Of a stretch of DNA of 64,000 nt, positions 9,939 to 39,560 are shown one piece after another; position 1 is the first letter of the stretch; every line of letters starts with the position of its first letter. The notes under the pieces were generated by a model that was not told the DNA's origin, ran no database searches, and worked only from the letters and a program-made list of their open reading frames with translations. The stretch covers positions 1 through 64,000 of the forward strand of contig NZ_FOOX01000002.1 of assembly GCF_900113335.1 (NCBI RefSeq), read 5' to 3'. The position numbers were made by a program, and so were the translations under genes. The DNA is from Desulfotruncus arcticus DSM 17038. GTDB taxonomy: Bacteria; Bacillota; Desulfotomaculia; Desulfotomaculales; Desulfallaceae.

Positions 9939-10274
9939 TTATTCTAATCTTTCCATTAATTTAAGGCTAAAACCTATGCGCTCAATTTCTTTTCTTGTTA
10001 AAACATCCCCCTCTTGGGGTCTAATATTCAATTTGAAAGCAATGGCAAATTGCCCAACTTGTTGATGAAACTGAATTCTATTCATTTTTATATTTTCACC
10101 TAACAGGTCTGACATAACTTCAGCCGTAGCTTCGTGCCCAATGGCCGAAAGAAACCCATTTTGTTTTATATACCTCTTTGCAGTAGCTGCATCTATATCT
10201 TTGATAGAATACAAACCGTTAGTAGTAGCTACTGTTCCGTTAAATAGAGCGACAGGCAGTTTTACATCCTTCAT
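9939..10274 (-). CDS. DUF1874 protein (YddF / AcrIII-1 ring-nuclease family)
   Basis: A 111-residue protein with the DUF1874 pattern: LFNGTVATTNGLYSI at the N-terminus, FLSAIGHEAT in the middle, NRIQFHQQVGQFA, and a C-terminal DVLTRKEIERIG. The family includes viral AcrIII-1, which destroys the cyclic tetra-adenylate alarm of type III CRISPR, the bacterial Crn2, and YddF of the Bacillus element ICEBs1. The catalytic histidine of AcrIII-1 lies in the G-H-x-x-T motif; here it is His47. The ATG at 10274 follows TAGGAGAC. No CRISPR genes are in the window, so a mobile-element or anti-defence origin is as likely as a host role. Confidence 0.85.
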   Translation of the reverse strand: MKDVKLPVALFNGTVATTNGLYSIKDIDAATAKRYIKQNGFLSAIGHEATAEVMSDLLGENIKMNRIQFHQQVGQFAIAFKLNIRPQEGDVLTRKEIERIGFSLKLMERLE

Positions 10275-11530: not shown

Positions 11531-11788
11531 TTAATGAATAATAGGGTATTGCTTCTTAACGCCTTAATATTTACTGAGCTTATGGACAGCCAAATATAAG
11601 GTGCATATTTTCCATATAGGTTATATTTGATCACCCTTGATTCAATACAGAAGAGCGCCATAGATATTTTTTTGCTGGAAAATCTATAATATAAATGTAA
11701 AAAATCTCTATATTCATGTATAATATAATAAATTAAATTGGCTTGTCCAATCAACAAATTCAAATGGACAGGCTTCCGGGGTGTTTTA

Positions 11789-12937
11789 ATGGAATCGGAA
11801 ACACGTTCATTTGCAGTTTGTGTGGAAGATTTTGAAAACTTAAAATCTATAAAAAAGCTACACTTAAATATTTGGCAACTCCCCAAAGACCTTATTGTTG
11901 ATATAGGAATTCAGGTAGTTATAAATAAAATATTTTTTAAAGGGCGAAGTTATTTCAAGTTCATTTTATATACACCTTTCCTTGTTAACTTAAATAGTAT
12001 AGAGCAATTATATGATTGTTTTAGGGAAAAAAATGTTACCCAGTTAATCTTCAATGACGAAGTTCAGCAGTTTAAACCTATGAACCGAACTTCTCAAAAT
12101 GATACTGCAACATTAGTTTCTTTCTATGGCCGAGAACCTTTATTACTGCTAAAAGCAGAAATAGATAGACTTAATGAACAAAAAATTGAAATATTGCTAA
12201 ATATAGATGATCTCAAGCATGAGGAAATAGAAGATCCATGTAATCTTTATTTAAGATTTAGATACAAGTCTTCGTTAAAAAGTAAAAATATATGCATTTC
12301 CCAGGATGGTGGCTTTTCTGATAATATATTTTATGACATTAGATTTAATGAAATGAGATTACTGCCTATAAATGAACTGACTAATATACAAAGAAACTGT
12401 CTGGGCGTTGATGATTTATACATTTTTATTATTCAGGAATTTGACAGAAAAATAACTACATATGAAAAGGATTTAGAGTATATTAGATTTTTAGAAAAAG
12501 AACATTTTGGTTCTTATTTAAAAGAACTTAAAAGTATAAATAATGATTTTATAATCTATTACTGGAAAATAAAGGGTGGTTTTTCTGAAGACCCGGAAAG
12601 AAGAACCACTACCATTCAAATTCCTAAGGCTATTAATATGGTTGCTGGATTTGAAAAACAGAAAGTTTCTTTTAAACAGTTTCAAGCCGGGGTACTTATA
12701 AACGTTTTTTCAGCGGGAATAATATATAGTAACAAAATATTCCGTACTTATTTTGATAAATTGTTTGAGGGAAACAAATATATTTTAAGATTAATTACTT
12801 CGATTTCTAATTTACTTGATATTATTTTTTTTCTCTTGTTTGTTATAAGTTTTTTATATGGTGTTGCAAAATTAGTAAGATTTACTATATCTTTATATAA
12901 AAAGCCTAATTTTAAGTTTTCTTTTAGAAGATGGTGA
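11789..12937 (+). CDS. AT-rich island gene 1: unknown protein with C-terminal membrane segment
   Basis: A protein of 382 residues from the ATG at 11789 (GGGGTG upstream; a TTG at 11738 is also in frame). Most of it looks soluble and alpha/beta, with many Ile, Asn and Lys. A charged stretch with possible coiled coil lies at about residues 230-270 (EFDRKITTYEKDLEYIRFLEK, broken here by family-unlike residues). The C-terminus has a hydrophobic segment (LLDIIFFLLFVISFLYGV) and a basic tail. I recognise no family. Its strong AT bias differs from its neighbours, and it overlaps or abuts the next gene, so the three island genes are likely one operon. Confidence 0.65.
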   Translation: MESETRSFAVCVEDFENLKSIKKLHLNIWQLPKDLIVDIGIQVVINKIFFKGRSYFKFILYTPFLVNLNSIEQLYDCFREKNVTQLIFNDEVQQFKPMNRTSQNDTATLVSFYGREPLLLLKAEIDRLNEQKIEILLNIDDLKHEEIEDPCNLYLRFRYKSSLKSKNICISQDGGFSDNIFYDIRFNEMRLLPINELTNIQRNCLGVDDLYIFIIQEFDRKITTYEKDLEYIRFLEKEHFGSYLKELKSINNDFIIYYWKIKGGFSEDPERRTTTIQIPKAINMVAGFEKQKVSFKQFQAGVLINVFSAGIIYSNKIFRTYFDKLFEGNKYILRLITSISNLLDIIFFLLFVISFLYGVAKLVRFTISLYKKPNFKFSFRRW

Positions 12938-12942
12938 TTCAA

Positions 12943-13530
12943 ATGTCGAGTTTTACTATTAATAAAATAGCTTACAATTTAAAAACAAATATTAAATATG
13001 ATCATAAACTAAATGATATTTTTAGATTTGCATATGAAGAATATAAGCAATTCTATCCCGATTTTAAAGAATGGTTTTATGATAAGATGGTTATTGATTT
13101 TTATAAAGGAAATAGAATTATATATGCTATTGAAAATGAATACAATAATATTTATGGTATTGCAATTCTAAAAAAACCAAATAACTCAATAAGCTCTAAC
13201 AAAATTTGTAGTCTTTATCTCCTTAAAGAAATTAGGAAATTAGGTTTAGGTACATTACTTTTCACTGATTTTTATAAAGAATTTAATGAAAATATATTTA
13301 ACCCTAACTTGGTTATTACTGTTCCAGAAGAGAGGCTTTTCGAAACCGATGGTGGAATACAGTTTTATAGATTTTTGAATAATCATGGTTTTAAATTGAA
13401 AAATGCTAATAGGGGTAAGTATAGATTGGGCTATCATGAATACGTATTTATAAAAAATTTGTCGGGAGTAAATCATGGAAATCAAAGGTATAATAACCAT
13501 TCAGCCCAAATTTGCCTTAGGAATAGTTAA
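12943..13530 (+). CDS. AT-rich island gene 2: GNAT-type acetyltransferase
   Basis: A protein of 195 residues. The central block YGIAILKKPN, ICSLYLLKEIRKLGLGTLLF fits motif A of GNAT enzymes, with R-K-L-G-L-G as the acetyl-CoA pyrophosphate loop, followed by a helix and later by FYRFLNNHGFK (motif B-like). GNAT enzymes move acetyl groups onto amines of small molecules, proteins or RNA bases; the acceptor is unknown. It starts 5 nt after gene 1 (or overlaps it if the GTG at 12931 is used), and its end overlaps gene 3 by 56 nt. Confidence 0.75.
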   Translation: MSSFTINKIAYNLKTNIKYDHKLNDIFRFAYEEYKQFYPDFKEWFYDKMVIDFYKGNRIIYAIENEYNNIYGIAILKKPNNSISSNKICSLYLLKEIRKLGLGTLLFTDFYKEFNENIFNPNLVITVPEERLFETDGGIQFYRFLNNHGFKLKNANRGKYRLGYHEYVFIKNLSGVNHGNQRYNNHSAQICLRNS

Positions 13531-13984
13531 GGGATTTAAACGTATTGAATGGAGAAAGAAAAATAGCTTTTCCAATTTGAATCATTTTTTATGCTCTAAA
13601 AATAAGAAGTTAAATTTATTAATGTATGTAACTTCTCCAGTTAAAAGTCCTTGTATTGTAGTAGAAACTTCTAACATTGAAATTGGTGACCCAATTGAGA
13701 TTTTTAATAAAAATGCCAGCATTGCTGGCATTTCTTACTTGGATATTTTAAGCTACTATGGTGGTAAACATACTATTGATAAATTATATAATTATAGTGA
13801 TAACACAATATGTGAGAAAGCTTATGTAATTTATATTAAGCATTGTTACTTGATTCACCAAAGTATCTTAACAGAACTCGTTAATTATATAACTGAAATA
13901 AATCTGAGTATTTTAAAGGGTATTCGTTCAGTTCAAGAGTTTAATTACACAATTAACAATAATATGATTTACAAAATATGGTAG
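13475..13984 (+). CDS. AT-rich island gene 3: ASCH/PUA-like domain protein
   Basis: A 169-residue protein starting with GIITIQPKFALGIVKGFKRIEWRKK. The pattern (I-x-P-x-(8)-G-x-K-x-x-E-x-R) is typical of ASCH domains, which have a PUA-like beta barrel and bind or hydrolyse modified nucleosides; E. coli YqfB, an N4-acetylcytidine hydrolase, is a member. A second conserved-looking part is LLMYVTSPVKSPCIVVE. ATG at 13475 lies within the end of the GNAT gene, implying translational coupling. Pairing an acetyltransferase with a possible deacetylating ASCH protein is notable. Confidence 0.7.
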   Translation: MEIKGIITIQPKFALGIVKGFKRIEWRKKNSFSNLNHFLCSKNKKLNLLMYVTSPVKSPCIVVETSNIEIGDPIEIFNKNASIAGISYLDILSYYGGKHTIDKLYNYSDNTICEKAYVIYIKHCYLIHQSILTELVNYITEINLSILKGIRSVQEFNYTINNNMIYKIW

Positions 13985-14230
13985 TATCGGAGATTGCCGT
14001 GAAGATTTTAAACCACCATGACATGGCACCTAAAAATACCCCGGAGGCTGCAACAACAGCGGCATGCAAATGGCCGGCGTTCCCGTAAAGTTTAAAGCCG
14101 GCAAAAATTGCGGTATACGCCAATATGTTAACGGGATTGGCTATGGTCAGAACGAAGGCGGATGAGAAAGCCTTATATAAACCCGGCAATATTATTTTGC
14201 AAATACAGACGGGTATAAATCTGGGCGGTC
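13953..14230 (-). pseudogene. LysE-family transporter, internal fragment
   Basis: On the minus strand the frame reads KAFSSAFVLTIANPVNILAY, then two hydrophobic stretches. F-x-x-G/A-F-x-L-x-x-x-N-P is the fourth-helix signature of LysE/RhtB amino-acid exporters. The first three helices and a start codon are absent and the C-terminus ends abruptly at the island border, so it is a remnant. It flanks the AT-rich island on the right as the phosphoesterase fragment does on the left. Confidence 0.72.
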
Positions 14231-26289: not shown

Positions 26290-29200
26290 ATGAAGAGAAT
26301 TATATTATTAACGGCACTTACTATTGGTATGTTGTTTTGCTTGGCAACATCTTCGTATGCGACCGGTTTATCCAGCAATTTGGTCACTAATGGCGACGGA
26401 GATAATTGGGGTATTTGGAATAAAGATACAAGTGGAAGCTATGTTGACCACTGGAGTCAATTATCTGATCTTGGCGGTACTGCTGGATATGCCCCTGTAT
26501 CCCCGTTCGATTCAGGCGCGATTGGTGATAATGAGTTCTTTGACTTCTGGGATAATTCCACTACGAATAAAACCGGATGCCTGTATCAAGATATAGTCCT
26601 TACCGACACAACAGGAAGTCTGTTCTCCGATATAGACGCCGGAAATATCGGTTTAAATGCACAAGCATATATTTTCAAATACCTTCCCGGCGACGGAGGA
26701 ACCATTCAAATTAAATTCTTGGATGGATCCGGAAGTGAAATTGCAGTCGGGCCCTACCGCAGTTCACGGGATACAAATGACCTCTCAAATTGGGAGTTGG
26801 TGCAAGTCCAGCATGTGCCTGTTCCTTCTGGAGCAAGGACAATCCGTGTAATGCTTATTGCATATGCGCCTGATGGTAATTCCTATGTTGATTTTGACGG
26901 GATAGATGTTGAGCTATGCAACCTTCCTGATATTTCGATTGCGAATTCAACTGCAAACCATACATACAATGGCACTCAAACTATTACTATGTCCGGAACC
27001 GCATCCGACCCGGATGGCCTGCCGGTTACAGTTTCCGCAGCCATTAGCGGTATAACTCAATCAACAACCATTGCAAGCGGTGCTGCATGGAATCTATCAT
27101 GGGATATTGCTTCACTGGGCATTACTGATGGAGATTATACAAACATTCAAGTTACCGCAGATAACGGAAAGGGCATAAGGACCGCAACTTATACCGGGAC
27201 ATTGGCTGTAGATGGGACCGCACCGGCGGCAAGCAGCCTCAGCCCGTCGGATAATGCGACCAACGTGGGAGTAAATGACAACCTGGTGATTAACTTCAGT
27301 GAAAATGTGGTGGTGGGTACAGGAAACATTACCATAAAGAAGACCTCCGACGACAGCATGGTAGAAACTATCGATGTTACCGGAGGAAAAGTGACGGGAA
27401 GCGATACCAGCGCGATAACGGTAGATCCGGCAACTACACTGGATGGAGAAACCGGATATTATGTGGTAATAGATGCCACGGCATTTAGCGACACAGCCGG
27501 CAACAGCTATGCGGGGATAAGCAGCAGCAGCGCCTGGAATTTCACCACAGCCGATATAACAGCACCTACAGTAAGCAGCATCGACAGAAACAGTCCCGCG
27601 GGCGAATCGACCAACGCAACAAGCGTAACCTACAGGGTGACCTTCTCGGAGGCTGTAACAGGAGTGGACACAAGCGACTTCACACTGACCGAAACAGGGA
27701 CCGCACACGGCATAATAGCAGCAGTATCTGCGGGAAGCGGCACAACAATAGACGTAACCGTAAGCGGTATTACGGGAGACGGGACCCTGCGTCTGGACCT
27801 GAACAGCTCGGGTACGGGAATAACAGACGACGCAGGAAATGCCCTAGCAACAGGCTACACAAGCGGCCAAACTTATACCTTTGACACCACGGCACCGACA
27901 GGTGGCAGCATCAGCATCAATAGCGGGGCCGATTACACCACTAGCACTTCCGTAACGCTCACCCTGTCGGCAACAGGGGCGAGCGAGATGATGGTGAGCG
28001 AGGACAGCGGCTTCAGCGGCGCAAGCTATGAGGCGTACTCAACCAGCAAGAGCTTTACCTTAAGCAGCGGGGACGGGATAAAAACAGTATACGCAAAATA
28101 TAAAGATGCAGCCGGTAACGAAACAAGCGCCACCATAAGCGACACAATAACCCTTGTCACCACGGCGGCGACTTATACCGTGACCTATAACGGCAATGGC
28201 AGCAGCTCCGGCAGCGTGCCGATAGACCGCACTAGCTACAACAGCGGCGACACGGTGACGGTAGCGGGCAACGGCGGCGGCCTGACGAAAACTGGCTATA
28301 CCTTCACGGGATGGAACACGGCGGCCAACGGCAGCGGTACCACCTACGCCGCAGGCAGCGGCACCTTTATCATCAGTGCCGACACTACGCTGTACGCCAA
28401 GTGGGTTCTTAACACCGCTTCCGCAGCAGCGGACCTGTCCTTTCTGTACGTTAGCCCCGGAACCCTGAGCCCCGGCTTCTCGGCAAGCGAAACCGAATAT
28501 ACCGTAAGCGTGGGCAACTTGAAGGACAGCATGACTGTAACGGCCTGCGTATACGACACAAGCGCTACCCTTAAAATAAACGGAGAAACTCCGACGGTAA
28601 CCGGTGCGGTATACGGAGAATATGCGGCAACAATAGACCTGGAAGTAGGTTCAAACAACATAATATCGGTCGAAGTTACAGCACGGGACGGGACCACCAC
28701 AAAAACCTACACCATAACAGCAACAAGGGCAGCGGCAAGCCACCACTCATCAAGCGGTGGCGGCGGTGGCAGCGGTGGCAGTAATAGCAGCACAACCACG
28801 GATAAGACAACAACAAAAGTAGTAGTAAACGGCGAAGAATATAACGCCGGGACAACCACCACCACAACCGAAGGCAGCCGGACAGTCACAATAGTAACAG
28901 TGGACGACGACAAAATAGAAGCACTGCTGGAAGCCAAAGGAAACAACACGACAGTAGAAATACCCATAAGCAGCACAACAGACATAGCAGAGGGAGTCCT
29001 CAGCGGACAGACCATAAAAAACATGGAAGCAAAAGCAGCCGTACTGGTAGTAAAAACGGATACAATAAGCTATACCCTGCCTGCGTCTGAGATAGACATA
29101 GACAGCGTCTCGGAGCAGATAGGAGCCCAGGCAGCGCTTAAAGACATAGCGATACACGTGATTATAGCCGCACCACCGGCAGATACGGTAAAAATAGTGA

Positions 29201-30057
29201 CAGACACGGCAGACAAAAACAGCTACCAGATAGTAGTAAACCCCGTAGAATTTGAAATAATCTGTACGAACGGTGACAAGACGGTTGAAGTGTCAAAATT
29301 TAAAGCCTACGTAGAAAGGACCATAGCAATACCAGAAGGAGTAGACCCGTTAAAAATAACCACGGCAGTAGTATTGAACGCTGACGGCACCCTCACACAC
29401 GTACCGACGCAAATAATAAGCATAGACGGCAAATATTACGCTAAAATAAACAGCCTTACAAACAGCACCTACACGGTTATATATAACCCCAAAGAATTCA
29501 AGGATGTAGAAAACCACTGGGCAAAAGAAGTCGTAAACGACATGGGCTCAAGGCTGGTGATAAACGGGATAGGCGGAGAAAACTTCGCACCGGACAAGGA
29601 CGTCACCAGGGCGGAATTTGCGGCAATCATGGTAAAAGCCCTGGGGCTGAAAGCCGGCAGCGGAGCAAGCGGATTTGACGACGTAAAAAGCAGCGATTGG
29701 TACAGCGGTTACATCAAAACCGCAGCAGAATACGGCATAATATCCGGGTACGCGAACGGCAGCTTCGGCCCGGCGGACAAGATAACCCGTGAGCAGGCCA
29801 TGACCATGATAGCAAGAGCCATGAAAATAACGGGGTTAAAAGCAGAGCTTGCGGCAGGAGAAGAAGAAAAGCTGCTGTCGGGCTATGAAGACAGGGAAGT
29901 TTTAGCAGAATATGCGCGGAGCGGCATTGCGGAGTGCATAAAGACAGGTGTGGTATCAGGCAATAGCAGCACCGGGATAGCGCCCAAGGACAACATATCC
30001 AGGGCGGAGGTGGCTGTGATGGTGAGGAGGCTTCTCCAAAAGTCGGGACTCATATAA
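26290..30057 (+). CDS. Large S-layer-anchored surface protein
   Basis: A 1255-residue secreted protein. Order: signal peptide (1-25), an N-terminal lectin-like region (about 30-215), an Ig-like segment (about 215-310), a Big_5/SbsA-type Ig domain (about 311-420, LSPSDNATNVGVNDNLVINF), a second Ig domain (about 420-535), a third (to about 625), an InlB-type B repeat (about 630-710, GYTFTGWN), a cadherin-like beta sandwich (about 715-815), a Ser/Gly/Thr linker, an unknown domain (about 850-1060), and three SLH domains (about 1065-1255; FKDVENHWAKE, ITREQAMTMIARAM). SLH domains bind pyruvylated wall polymer, so it is the anchor of the preceding surface genes. Confidence 0.9.
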   Translation: MKRIILLTALTIGMLFCLATSSYATGLSSNLVTNGDGDNWGIWNKDTSGSYVDHWSQLSDLGGTAGYAPVSPFDSGAIGDNEFFDFWDNSTTNKTGCLYQDIVLTDTTGSLFSDIDAGNIGLNAQAYIFKYLPGDGGTIQIKFLDGSGSEIAVGPYRSSRDTNDLSNWELVQVQHVPVPSGARTIRVMLIAYAPDGNSYVDFDGIDVELCNLPDISIANSTANHTYNGTQTITMSGTASDPDGLPVTVSAAISGITQSTTIASGAAWNLSWDIASLGITDGDYTNIQVTADNGKGIRTATYTGTLAVDGTAPAASSLSPSDNATNVGVNDNLVINFSENVVVGTGNITIKKTSDDSMVETIDVTGGKVTGSDTSAITVDPATTLDGETGYYVVIDATAFSDTAGNSYAGISSSSAWNFTTADITAPTVSSIDRNSPAGESTNATSVTYRVTFSEAVTGVDTSDFTLTETGTAHGIIAAVSAGSGTTIDVTVSGITGDGTLRLDLNSSGTGITDDAGNALATGYTSGQTYTFDTTAPTGGSISINSGADYTTSTSVTLTLSATGASEMMVSEDSGFSGASYEAYSTSKSFTLSSGDGIKTVYAKYKDAAGNETSATISDTITLVTTAATYTVTYNGNGSSSGSVPIDRTSYNSGDTVTVAGNGGGLTKTGYTFTGWNTAANGSGTTYAAGSGTFIISADTTLYAKWVLNTASAAADLSFLYVSPGTLSPGFSASETEYTVSVGNLKDSMTVTACVYDTSATLKINGETPTVTGAVYGEYAATIDLEVGSNNIISVEVTARDGTTTKTYTITATRAAASHHSSSGGGGGSGGSNSSTTTDKTTTKVVVNGEEYNAGTTTTTTEGSRTVTIVTVDDDKIEALLEAKGNNTTVEIPISSTTDIAEGVLSGQTIKNMEAKAAVLVVKTDTISYTLPASEIDIDSVSEQIGAQAALKDIAIHVIIAAPPADTVKIVTDTADKNSYQIVVNPVEFEIICTNGDKTVEVSKFKAYVERTIAIPEGVDPLKITTAVVLNADGTLTHVPTQIISIDGKYYAKINSLTNSTYTVIYNPKEFKDVENHWAKEVVNDMGSRLVINGIGGENFAPDKDVTRAEFAAIMVKALGLKAGSGASGFDDVKSSDWYSGYIKTAAEYGIISGYANGSFGPADKITREQAMTMIARAMKITGLKAELAAGEEEKLLSGYEDREVLAEYARSGIAECIKTGVVSGNSSTGIAPKDNISRAEVAVMVRRLLQKSGLI

Positions 30058-38740: not shown

Positions 38741-38859
38741 TAATGCCCCATGGTTCTTTCTTTTTTCTGATATGTTTTATTGAGGACAGGTTGGGGATTA
38801 GAAAAACTGATACCCAAGTATATTCACCATATCTTTTCGCTTGCTAAAGATTTAAGTTG

Positions 38860-38891
38860 TGTATATACTAAATATAAAATTATGTATATAC
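38860..38891. promoter_or_regulatory. Operator of the toxin-antitoxin operon
   Basis: TGTATATAC occurs at 38860-38868 and again at 38883-38891, about two helical turns apart, each nearly palindromic. The second copy touches the ribosome binding site. This suits autorepression by the ribbon-helix-helix antitoxin. Confidence 0.6.
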
Positions 38892-38908
38892 AGGAGCAGA
38901 TAAAAATA

Positions 38909-39181
38909 ATGAAAACTAATCTGACACCTATTAGATTTCCTACCGATCTTTTAACTGAACTAGGTAAATATGTTGGTGATGGCAATAGAAGTAAGTTTAT
39001 TATTGATGCTACACGTAAAGAACTACACAGGTTAAAACAAAGTAAGGCTATTCGTAATGTGGCGGGTATTTTTAACGAGAAGGATTATCCTGAACTAAAA
39101 ACATCGGAAGACTCTTCGAACTGGGTGCGAAAGATGAGAGAAGAATCTGAAGCCAGGAGGAGAGATCTCTTTGGCGAATAA
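38909..39181 (+). CDS. Antitoxin, ribbon-helix-helix type
   Basis: A 90-residue protein from the ATG at 38909 behind CAGGAGCAG. The N-terminus (LTPIRFPTDLLTELGKYVGD, NRSKFIIDATRKEL) has the beta strand and two helices of an RHH DNA-binding domain. The C-terminal half (GIFNEKDYPELKTSEDSSNW) would cover the toxin. Its end overlaps the toxin gene by 11 nt. Confidence 0.85.
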   Translation: MKTNLTPIRFPTDLLTELGKYVGDGNRSKFIIDATRKELHRLKQSKAIRNVAGIFNEKDYPELKTSEDSSNWVRKMREESEARRRDLFGE

Positions 39182-39560
39182 TAACGGCTTTCTTTTGGAT
39201 ACAACCATCCTTATAGATTTGTTTCGGGGACGGCAAGAGGCTATAGATTTCCTTGATCAATTGTTACAAGAAGGATCTCTTTGTGTATGCGCAATAGTGG
39301 TGGCGGAAATTTTTTCAGGTATCCGCCCTGAAGAGCTGTCCAAGGTTGAAGAGTTTGTTGAAGCAATGAATTATTATCCTGTTGAATATAGGACAGCAAA
39401 AAGGGCAGGTTTGTATAGGCGGGATTTTCAGAAAAAGGGAATTACCCTTAGCATATCTGACACCCTGATTGCCGCTACTGCTATCGAACATTCCCTTACC
39501 TTAGTTACGAAAAACGTACGACACTTCCCTATGACTGAGTTAAGTATTATTGAACATTAG
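39171..39560 (+). CDS. vapC: VapC-type PIN-domain toxin
   Basis: A 129-residue PIN-domain ribonuclease from a TTG start inside the antitoxin gene. Acidic residues of the active site are seen in FLLDTTILIDLFRG, VVAEIFSG and ISISDTLIAATA (quoted as LSISDTLIAATA). VapC toxins cut tRNA or rRNA unless bound by the antitoxin. All residues expected of an active enzyme are present. Confidence 0.9.
   Translation: MANNNGFLLDTTILIDLFRGRQEAIDFLDQLLQEGSLCVCAIVVAEIFSGIRPEELSKVEEFVEAMNYYPVEYRTAKRAGLYRRDFQKKGITLSISDTLIAATAIEHSLTLVTKNVRHFPMTELSIIEH

Follow-up and report, generated by a model that had tools for sequence, protein, structure and literature searches.

Three tightly packed genes with a base composition unlike that of their neighbours raise the question of what such a set does and where it came from. 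The genes lie in the first 64,000 nucleotides of contig NZ_FOOX01000002.1 of Desulfotruncus arcticus DSM 17038 (1 to 64,000; hereafter the window, to which all coordinates refer unless a locus is named). An earlier note, made from the letters alone, had described them as an AT-rich island encoding a membrane protein, a GNAT acetyltransferase and an ASCH protein, and had proposed a writer/eraser or toxin/antidote pair acting on acetylated nucleosides. Sequence and structure comparisons suggest that the island probably serves against phages and includes components that are new.

The island and its surroundings

The three intact, overlapping open reading frames are found where the earlier note had placed them, all on the forward strand: P1 (11789 to 12937, +), a membrane-anchored protein; P2 (12931 to 13530, +), a short stand-alone GNAT (sGNAT, PHROG 13728); and P3 (13475 to 13984, +), an ASCH protein. 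The P1 frame opens at a TTG at 11738, but we favour the alternative ATG at 11789, which gives 382 aa, because homologues start there and a GGGGTG Shine-Dalgarno sequence lies ahead of this ATG. P2 starts either at 12931 or at an ATG at 12943; from the latter the gap after P1 is exactly the claimed 5 nt, and the 56-nt overlap of P2 with P3 was likewise found. At 27% GC, chance would come nowhere near producing open frames of 382, 199 and 169 codons, and the two motifs that had been read in them, R-K-L-G-L-G in the GNAT and G-x-K-x-x-E-x-R in the ASCH protein, are both present. The unusual composition was also borne out: the GC fraction of the island is 0.269 in a window of 0.451, and only 3 of 1236 equal-length stretches within the window have a lower value, which points to horizontal acquisition.

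That the island lies between two dead genes is plausible, albeit not firmly shown. At its right edge, a 78-aa LysE-like fragment (13953 to 14189, -) is probably a dead gene, as had been claimed, on a weak match to Pfam LysE (E 0.0023) that falls under the curated cut-off and covers only part of the profile. On the upstream side lies a short open reading frame with a phosphoesterase-like GDIIDRG string and no Pfam match. Around the island, neither a tRNA gene nor convincing flanking repeats were found as marks of an integration site.

Other features of the window are recorded here as separate observations. Some 1.5 kb ahead of the island, positions 9939 to 10274 (-) encode a 111-aa STIV_B116-like protein (PF08960, E 1.3e-30), of a family to which the viral ring nucleases AcrIII-1 (type III CRISPR) belong. 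Positions 27251 to 29750 show a strong AT skew (0.27-0.53) within a gene for a 1255-aa exported-looking protein, a feature not shared by the remainder of the first 30 kb. At 38780 to 39560, two overlapping small genes, the second of which starts like a PIN toxin (LLDTTILIDLFRG), are VapBC-like by reading; this pair had no PADLOC match.

Three proteins, two of them divergent members of their families

P1 is the least familiar of the three. The window protein had no match in Pfam, PADLOC or PHROG, and searches of Pfam and NCBIfam gave nothing useful for P1 or P3. A P1-family HMM built without the window picks it up with an E value of 1.5e-16. The family is marked by the segments LHxNLW, YxRFR and RLNExR followed by a C-terminal membrane helix, all of which are present in the window P1, encoded beside ASCH and GNAT genes; hydrophobic helices are found at the C terminus of its members, frequently together with an LLGAxGS motif. 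Because no signal peptide was seen, the remainder of the protein would lie in the cytoplasm, held by a tail anchor or a hairpin. AlphaFold2 models of the window P1 (pLDDT 63, pTM 0.60) and of a homologue from locus L104 (pLDDT 75, pTM 0.75) agree in outline, with a β-rich domain of ∼300 residues followed by membrane helices. Both predicted domains resemble the fold of ribophorin I and of the N-terminal domain of M1 aminopeptidases (Z 9-11.6, rmsd ∼3.5-4 over ∼180 residues), somewhat above the Z of 7-8 that the search tool reports as a common best value. Ribophorin I, like P1, ends in a membrane helix; however, identity to these proteins is only 6-11%. We rejected P1 as an M1 aminopeptidase, since only the N-terminal domain of those enzymes was matched and no HExxH peptidase part was found by reading. 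Beyond this match, the fold searches returned nothing enzyme-like, and the modelled fold says nothing of function. P1 appears to represent an undescribed family with a predicted β domain and a C-terminal membrane helix; no description of such a protein was found in the text, figures apart, of PMC7641849. The earlier note had held that its idea would fail if the first protein proved to be a phage structural protein. We discarded this identity, given that the window P1 has no PHROG match and that a search of the phage collection with a P1 homologue came back empty. Genome and viral contigs scanned with either P1 or P3 as a single query also gave no matches, and the P1 alignment shows too little conservation to support a pattern scan.

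P2 (199 aa) carries the acetyl-CoA loop RKLGLG and lacks an EVE domain. Only sub-threshold GNAT matches were obtained in Pfam and NCBIfam, and the match to PADLOC PDC-M11A was weak (E 1.4e-4). P2 matched phrog_13728 with an E value of 2.3e-12 and an sGNAT HMM built without the window with 7.5e-18, whereas the GNAT-EVE HMM did not match it, and we therefore rejected P2 as a truncated GNAT-EVE. It shows the features of the short GNAT family: it is stand-alone, has the loop and a YP-x(3,4)-W segment, and is without EVE. The two families are related (hhalign probability 93%), and P2 is a very divergent member of its own, with an end branch of 2.87 in the short-GNAT tree. P2 was also considered as a type II toxin of the AtaT/TacT kind, in which a ribbon-helix-helix antitoxin gene adjoins that of the GNAT. 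This was rejected, because its neighbours are P1 and the ASCH gene, and by reading no ribbon-helix-helix antitoxin frame lies beside P2.

Members of the short GNAT family were found in 14 phage records, each with a genome of 223-469 kb; 201phi2-1, Phosso, Viktualia and Kc263 are among these phages (loci L226, L227, L228 and L229). The acetyltransferases of 201phi2-1 (gp209), Kc263 and Phosso share with P2 the YYPxIxxW and C-terminal YRxxxxEYxFN segments, but these jumbo phages differ from the window in carrying the enzyme without P1; in 201phi2-1 the gene lies beside virion and protease genes. The phage proteins form a supported clade with one short GNAT from Variovorax. Short GNATs without P1 also occur in Variovorax and Rhizobium, and a Variovorax gene of this kind with neither P1 nor ASCH (L224, 6983 to 7357) directly follows a Wadjet (JetABCD) operon on four near-identical plasmids.

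P3 is a divergent member of the GevA/M11B family, with matches to PADLOC PDC-M11B (E 2.1e-9), to an ASCH HMM built without the window (E 4.5e-10) and to phrog_3136 (E 6.6e-9); P3 as query gave no matches on plasmids. The nearest solved relatives of its family are ZmASCH (Zymomonas mobilis ZMO0922, PDB 5GUQ) and its relatives (E 1.6e-21). ZmASCH is an ssRNA nuclease that depends on Mg and whose cleft contains Tyr47, Lys53 and Ser128 (PMC5615036). P3 keeps the first two of these residues but not Ser128, and the nuclease activity was shown for ZmASCH only (PMC5615036). This bears on the proposal that P2 is a cytidine acetyltransferase whose product is deacetylated by P3 in the manner of YqfB. The proposal fits a GNAT and an ASCH protein encoded by overlapping genes, but it is hard to reconcile with the residues on which YqfB depends: Lys21, the nucleophile Thr24, Arg26 and Glu74, the first three in the arrangement Lys21-x-x-Thr24-x-Arg26, with T24A inactive (PMC6972931). 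In the P3 motif, G-F-K-R-I-E-W-R, the position of the threonine is held by glutamate (K-R-I-E-W-R), as it is in the relatives aligned with P3, which leaves an ac4C eraser without its catalytic nucleophile. Further, the closest solved ASCH protein is the ssRNA nuclease rather than YqfB, and the solved GNATs closest to the short GNAT family acetylate protein N termini. We therefore rejected P3 as a YqfB-type ac4C amidohydrolase, and a writer/eraser pair for ac4C is highly improbable.

Recurrence of the gene set and its known relatives

The claim that the GNAT and ASCH genes belong together and recur elsewhere with a membrane protein was upheld in 24 complete P1 loci from Bacillota, Alpha-, Beta- and Gammaproteobacteria and Campylobacterota (a P1 gene cut by a contig end, L208, is excluded; L033, whose ASCH gene was identified separately, is included). 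An ASCH gene is present in all 24, a (PIN-)GNAT-EVE gene in 20, a P-loop gene in 19 and a short GNAT gene in 16, and the short GNAT adjoins P1 in 16 of the 16 loci having both. The possibility that homologues of the GNAT and ASCH genes are never found together, which the earlier note had named as counting against its idea, can be set aside, as every complete locus carries at least one GNAT gene along with its ASCH gene. Fourteen of the 24 were found with P1 as the sole bait; nine came from a GNAT-EVE bait and are thus not independent evidence of a link between P1 and GNAT-EVE.

One distant P1 homologue lies on a Rhizobium megaplasmid, directly after GNAT-EVE and ASCH genes and before HTH-ASCH, PIN-GNAT-EVE and P-loop genes. 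With this protein as the query, PLSDB gave seven P1 records (two from Rhizobium and one each from Methylobacterium, Paracoccus, Pseudomonas, Nitrosophilus and Paenibacillus); all seven have (PIN-)GNAT-EVE and ASCH, and four have a stand-alone GNAT of 171-213 aa beside P1. In a set of 160 GNAT-EVE loci drawn from genome and viral contigs, ASCH is present in 156, P-loop in 48, P1 in 10 and short GNAT in 5, the last always accompanied by P1. Searches of whole genomes with the P1 alignment, which gave seven further complete loci, indicated how rare P1 is: it was found in 1 of 398 genomes of the window's phylum, namely the window's own, and in 3 of 200, 1 of 274, 3 of 249 and 5 of 200 genomes of four other groups, with the seed genome counted each time. 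Judged from these searches, the set is rare, mobile and recurrent across distant bacteria.

Several of the related loci lie in mobile or defence contexts, as the earlier note had envisaged. Type I restriction genes lie next to L219 and a gene with a Lamassu LmuB-like match next to L033, and L207 and L221 have genes beside them that read as integrase-like. On a Nitrosophilus plasmid, a complete P1 locus (L034, 7974 to 16885) lies beside Tn7-like TnsA/TniB/TniQ genes and is possibly cargo of a Tn7-like element.

The set also has toxin-antitoxin-like relatives. In M11B loci of other Bacillota, PDC-M11A is a GNAT of ∼355 aa with a further C-terminal domain and sometimes an N-terminal PIN domain, and its gene overlaps or adjoins the ASCH gene. 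Operons of (PIN-)GNAT-EVE with ASCH, often with an AAA_17 ATPase, were predicted to be toxin-antitoxin systems, none of them characterised (Bell, Wolf and Koonin 2020, PMC7641849). The record of the lambda-like phage PhiR47_2 (GenBank PV340567; L230, 1950 to 3378) names such a pair GevT toxin and GevA antitoxin, and PADLOC identifies the two proteins as PDC-M11A and PDC-M11B (E 2e-133 and 7e-52). GevAT, PDC-M11A/M11B and the (PIN-)GNAT-EVE/ASCH/AAA_17 operons as described in the text of PMC7641849 are thus one and the same, which ties an unnamed PADLOC candidate to a named system. A literature search for PDC-M11 or GevAT found no paper, and the toxin and antitoxin names rest on the GenBank record.

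The window resembles GevAT in its homologous ASCH gene with an adjoining GNAT of a related family, in the mobile and defence contexts of such loci and in the P1 family shared by both kinds of locus. It differs in having neither GNAT-EVE nor a P-loop gene, and in that its GNAT is stand-alone and has no EVE domain and that it encodes a membrane protein, of which no description was found in the text of PMC7641849. No remnant of a GNAT-EVE or P-loop gene was found within the window, and PDC-M11A (PDLC04419) had no match in the whole genome; the absence of GNAT-EVE means that the window is not strictly a GevAT member. Three other, unrelated loci, all of them among the seven from the whole-genome searches with the P1 alignment, share this absence. 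L207, L219 and L222 have P1, short GNAT, ASCH and P-loop, with no GNAT-EVE or remnant of it within the stretch read. In L222 (Paenibacillales) the four genes are on one strand, in the order of the window with one gene added; its short GNAT falls within a group of short GNATs from Paenibacillales loci in which PIN-GNAT-EVE is retained, indicating that the presence of GNAT-EVE changed there independently.

A proposed conflict module and its alternatives

Family memberships, recurrence and spread across phyla, the absence of GNAT-EVE and the homology of the ASCH protein to a named antitoxin are directly established. On this basis we somewhat favour the reading that the island is a horizontally acquired conflict module of the toxin-antitoxin or abortive-infection type, related to GevAT, in which P1 and sGNAT would replace GNAT-EVE as the effector under a GevA-homologous ASCH protein. 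The constant company of ASCH and GNAT with P1 (24 of 24 loci, 14 of them reached through P1 only), the adjacency of short GNAT and P1 wherever both occur, the four loci without GNAT-EVE, the named homologous pair in the phage record, the low GC and the type I restriction, Tn7-like and Lamassu-like neighbours all argue for it. Counted against it are the lack of the P-loop gene that 19 of 24 loci have, the great divergence of P2 (the branch of 2.87) and P3, and the dependence of the toxin and antitoxin names on one GenBank record. In such a module, the ASCH protein may bind nucleic acid and/or its partners and keep the module silent, restraining the effector and/or sensing nucleic acid. Upon phage attack, sGNAT would acetylate a target, for which P1 itself, tRNA and some other nucleic acid are candidates. 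The damaging step would be performed or localised by P1, held in the inner membrane with its β domain facing the cytoplasm. Two components not found described, a membrane-anchored β-domain protein and a stand-alone GNAT, join a widespread, barely studied toxin-antitoxin family; and because the presumed toxin GNAT-EVE is dispensable, the essential core may differ from that assumed.

The presence of the same GNAT subfamily in jumbo phages provides a direct, testable link to counter-defence and bears on two further readings. Tentatively, P1, short GNAT and ASCH might constitute an anti-phage system of its own, with a new effector at the membrane, to which the short GNAT of jumbo phages is the matching antidote; one enzyme family would then sit on both sides of the conflict. 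It is about equally conceivable, and equally short of probable, that sGNAT is a protective partner that acetylates P1 or the target of P1, with P1 alone a toxic membrane effector and the jumbo-phage enzyme a borrowed antidote. The 14 phage records with short GNAT, set beside the absence of P1 from the phage collection, the strict adjacency of the two genes in bacteria and the supported clade of phage and Variovorax enzymes are consistent with protection, but 8 of the 24 P1 loci have only (PIN-)GNAT-EVE and no short GNAT, short GNATs exist without P1 in Variovorax and Rhizobium, and the phage enzymes may serve an unrelated purpose. Decay offers a less likely account than either, namely that the window holds a non-functional remnant of a full (PIN-)GNAT-EVE/ASCH/P-loop/P1/sGNAT locus whose toxin was lost. 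The broken neighbours on both sides, the long P2 branch and the lack of GNAT-EVE in the genome and of any P-loop gene or remnant in the window would fit such a history; however, each of the three genes is intact and retains conserved motifs at 27% GC, and L207, L219 and L222 are intact loci that likewise lack GNAT-EVE.
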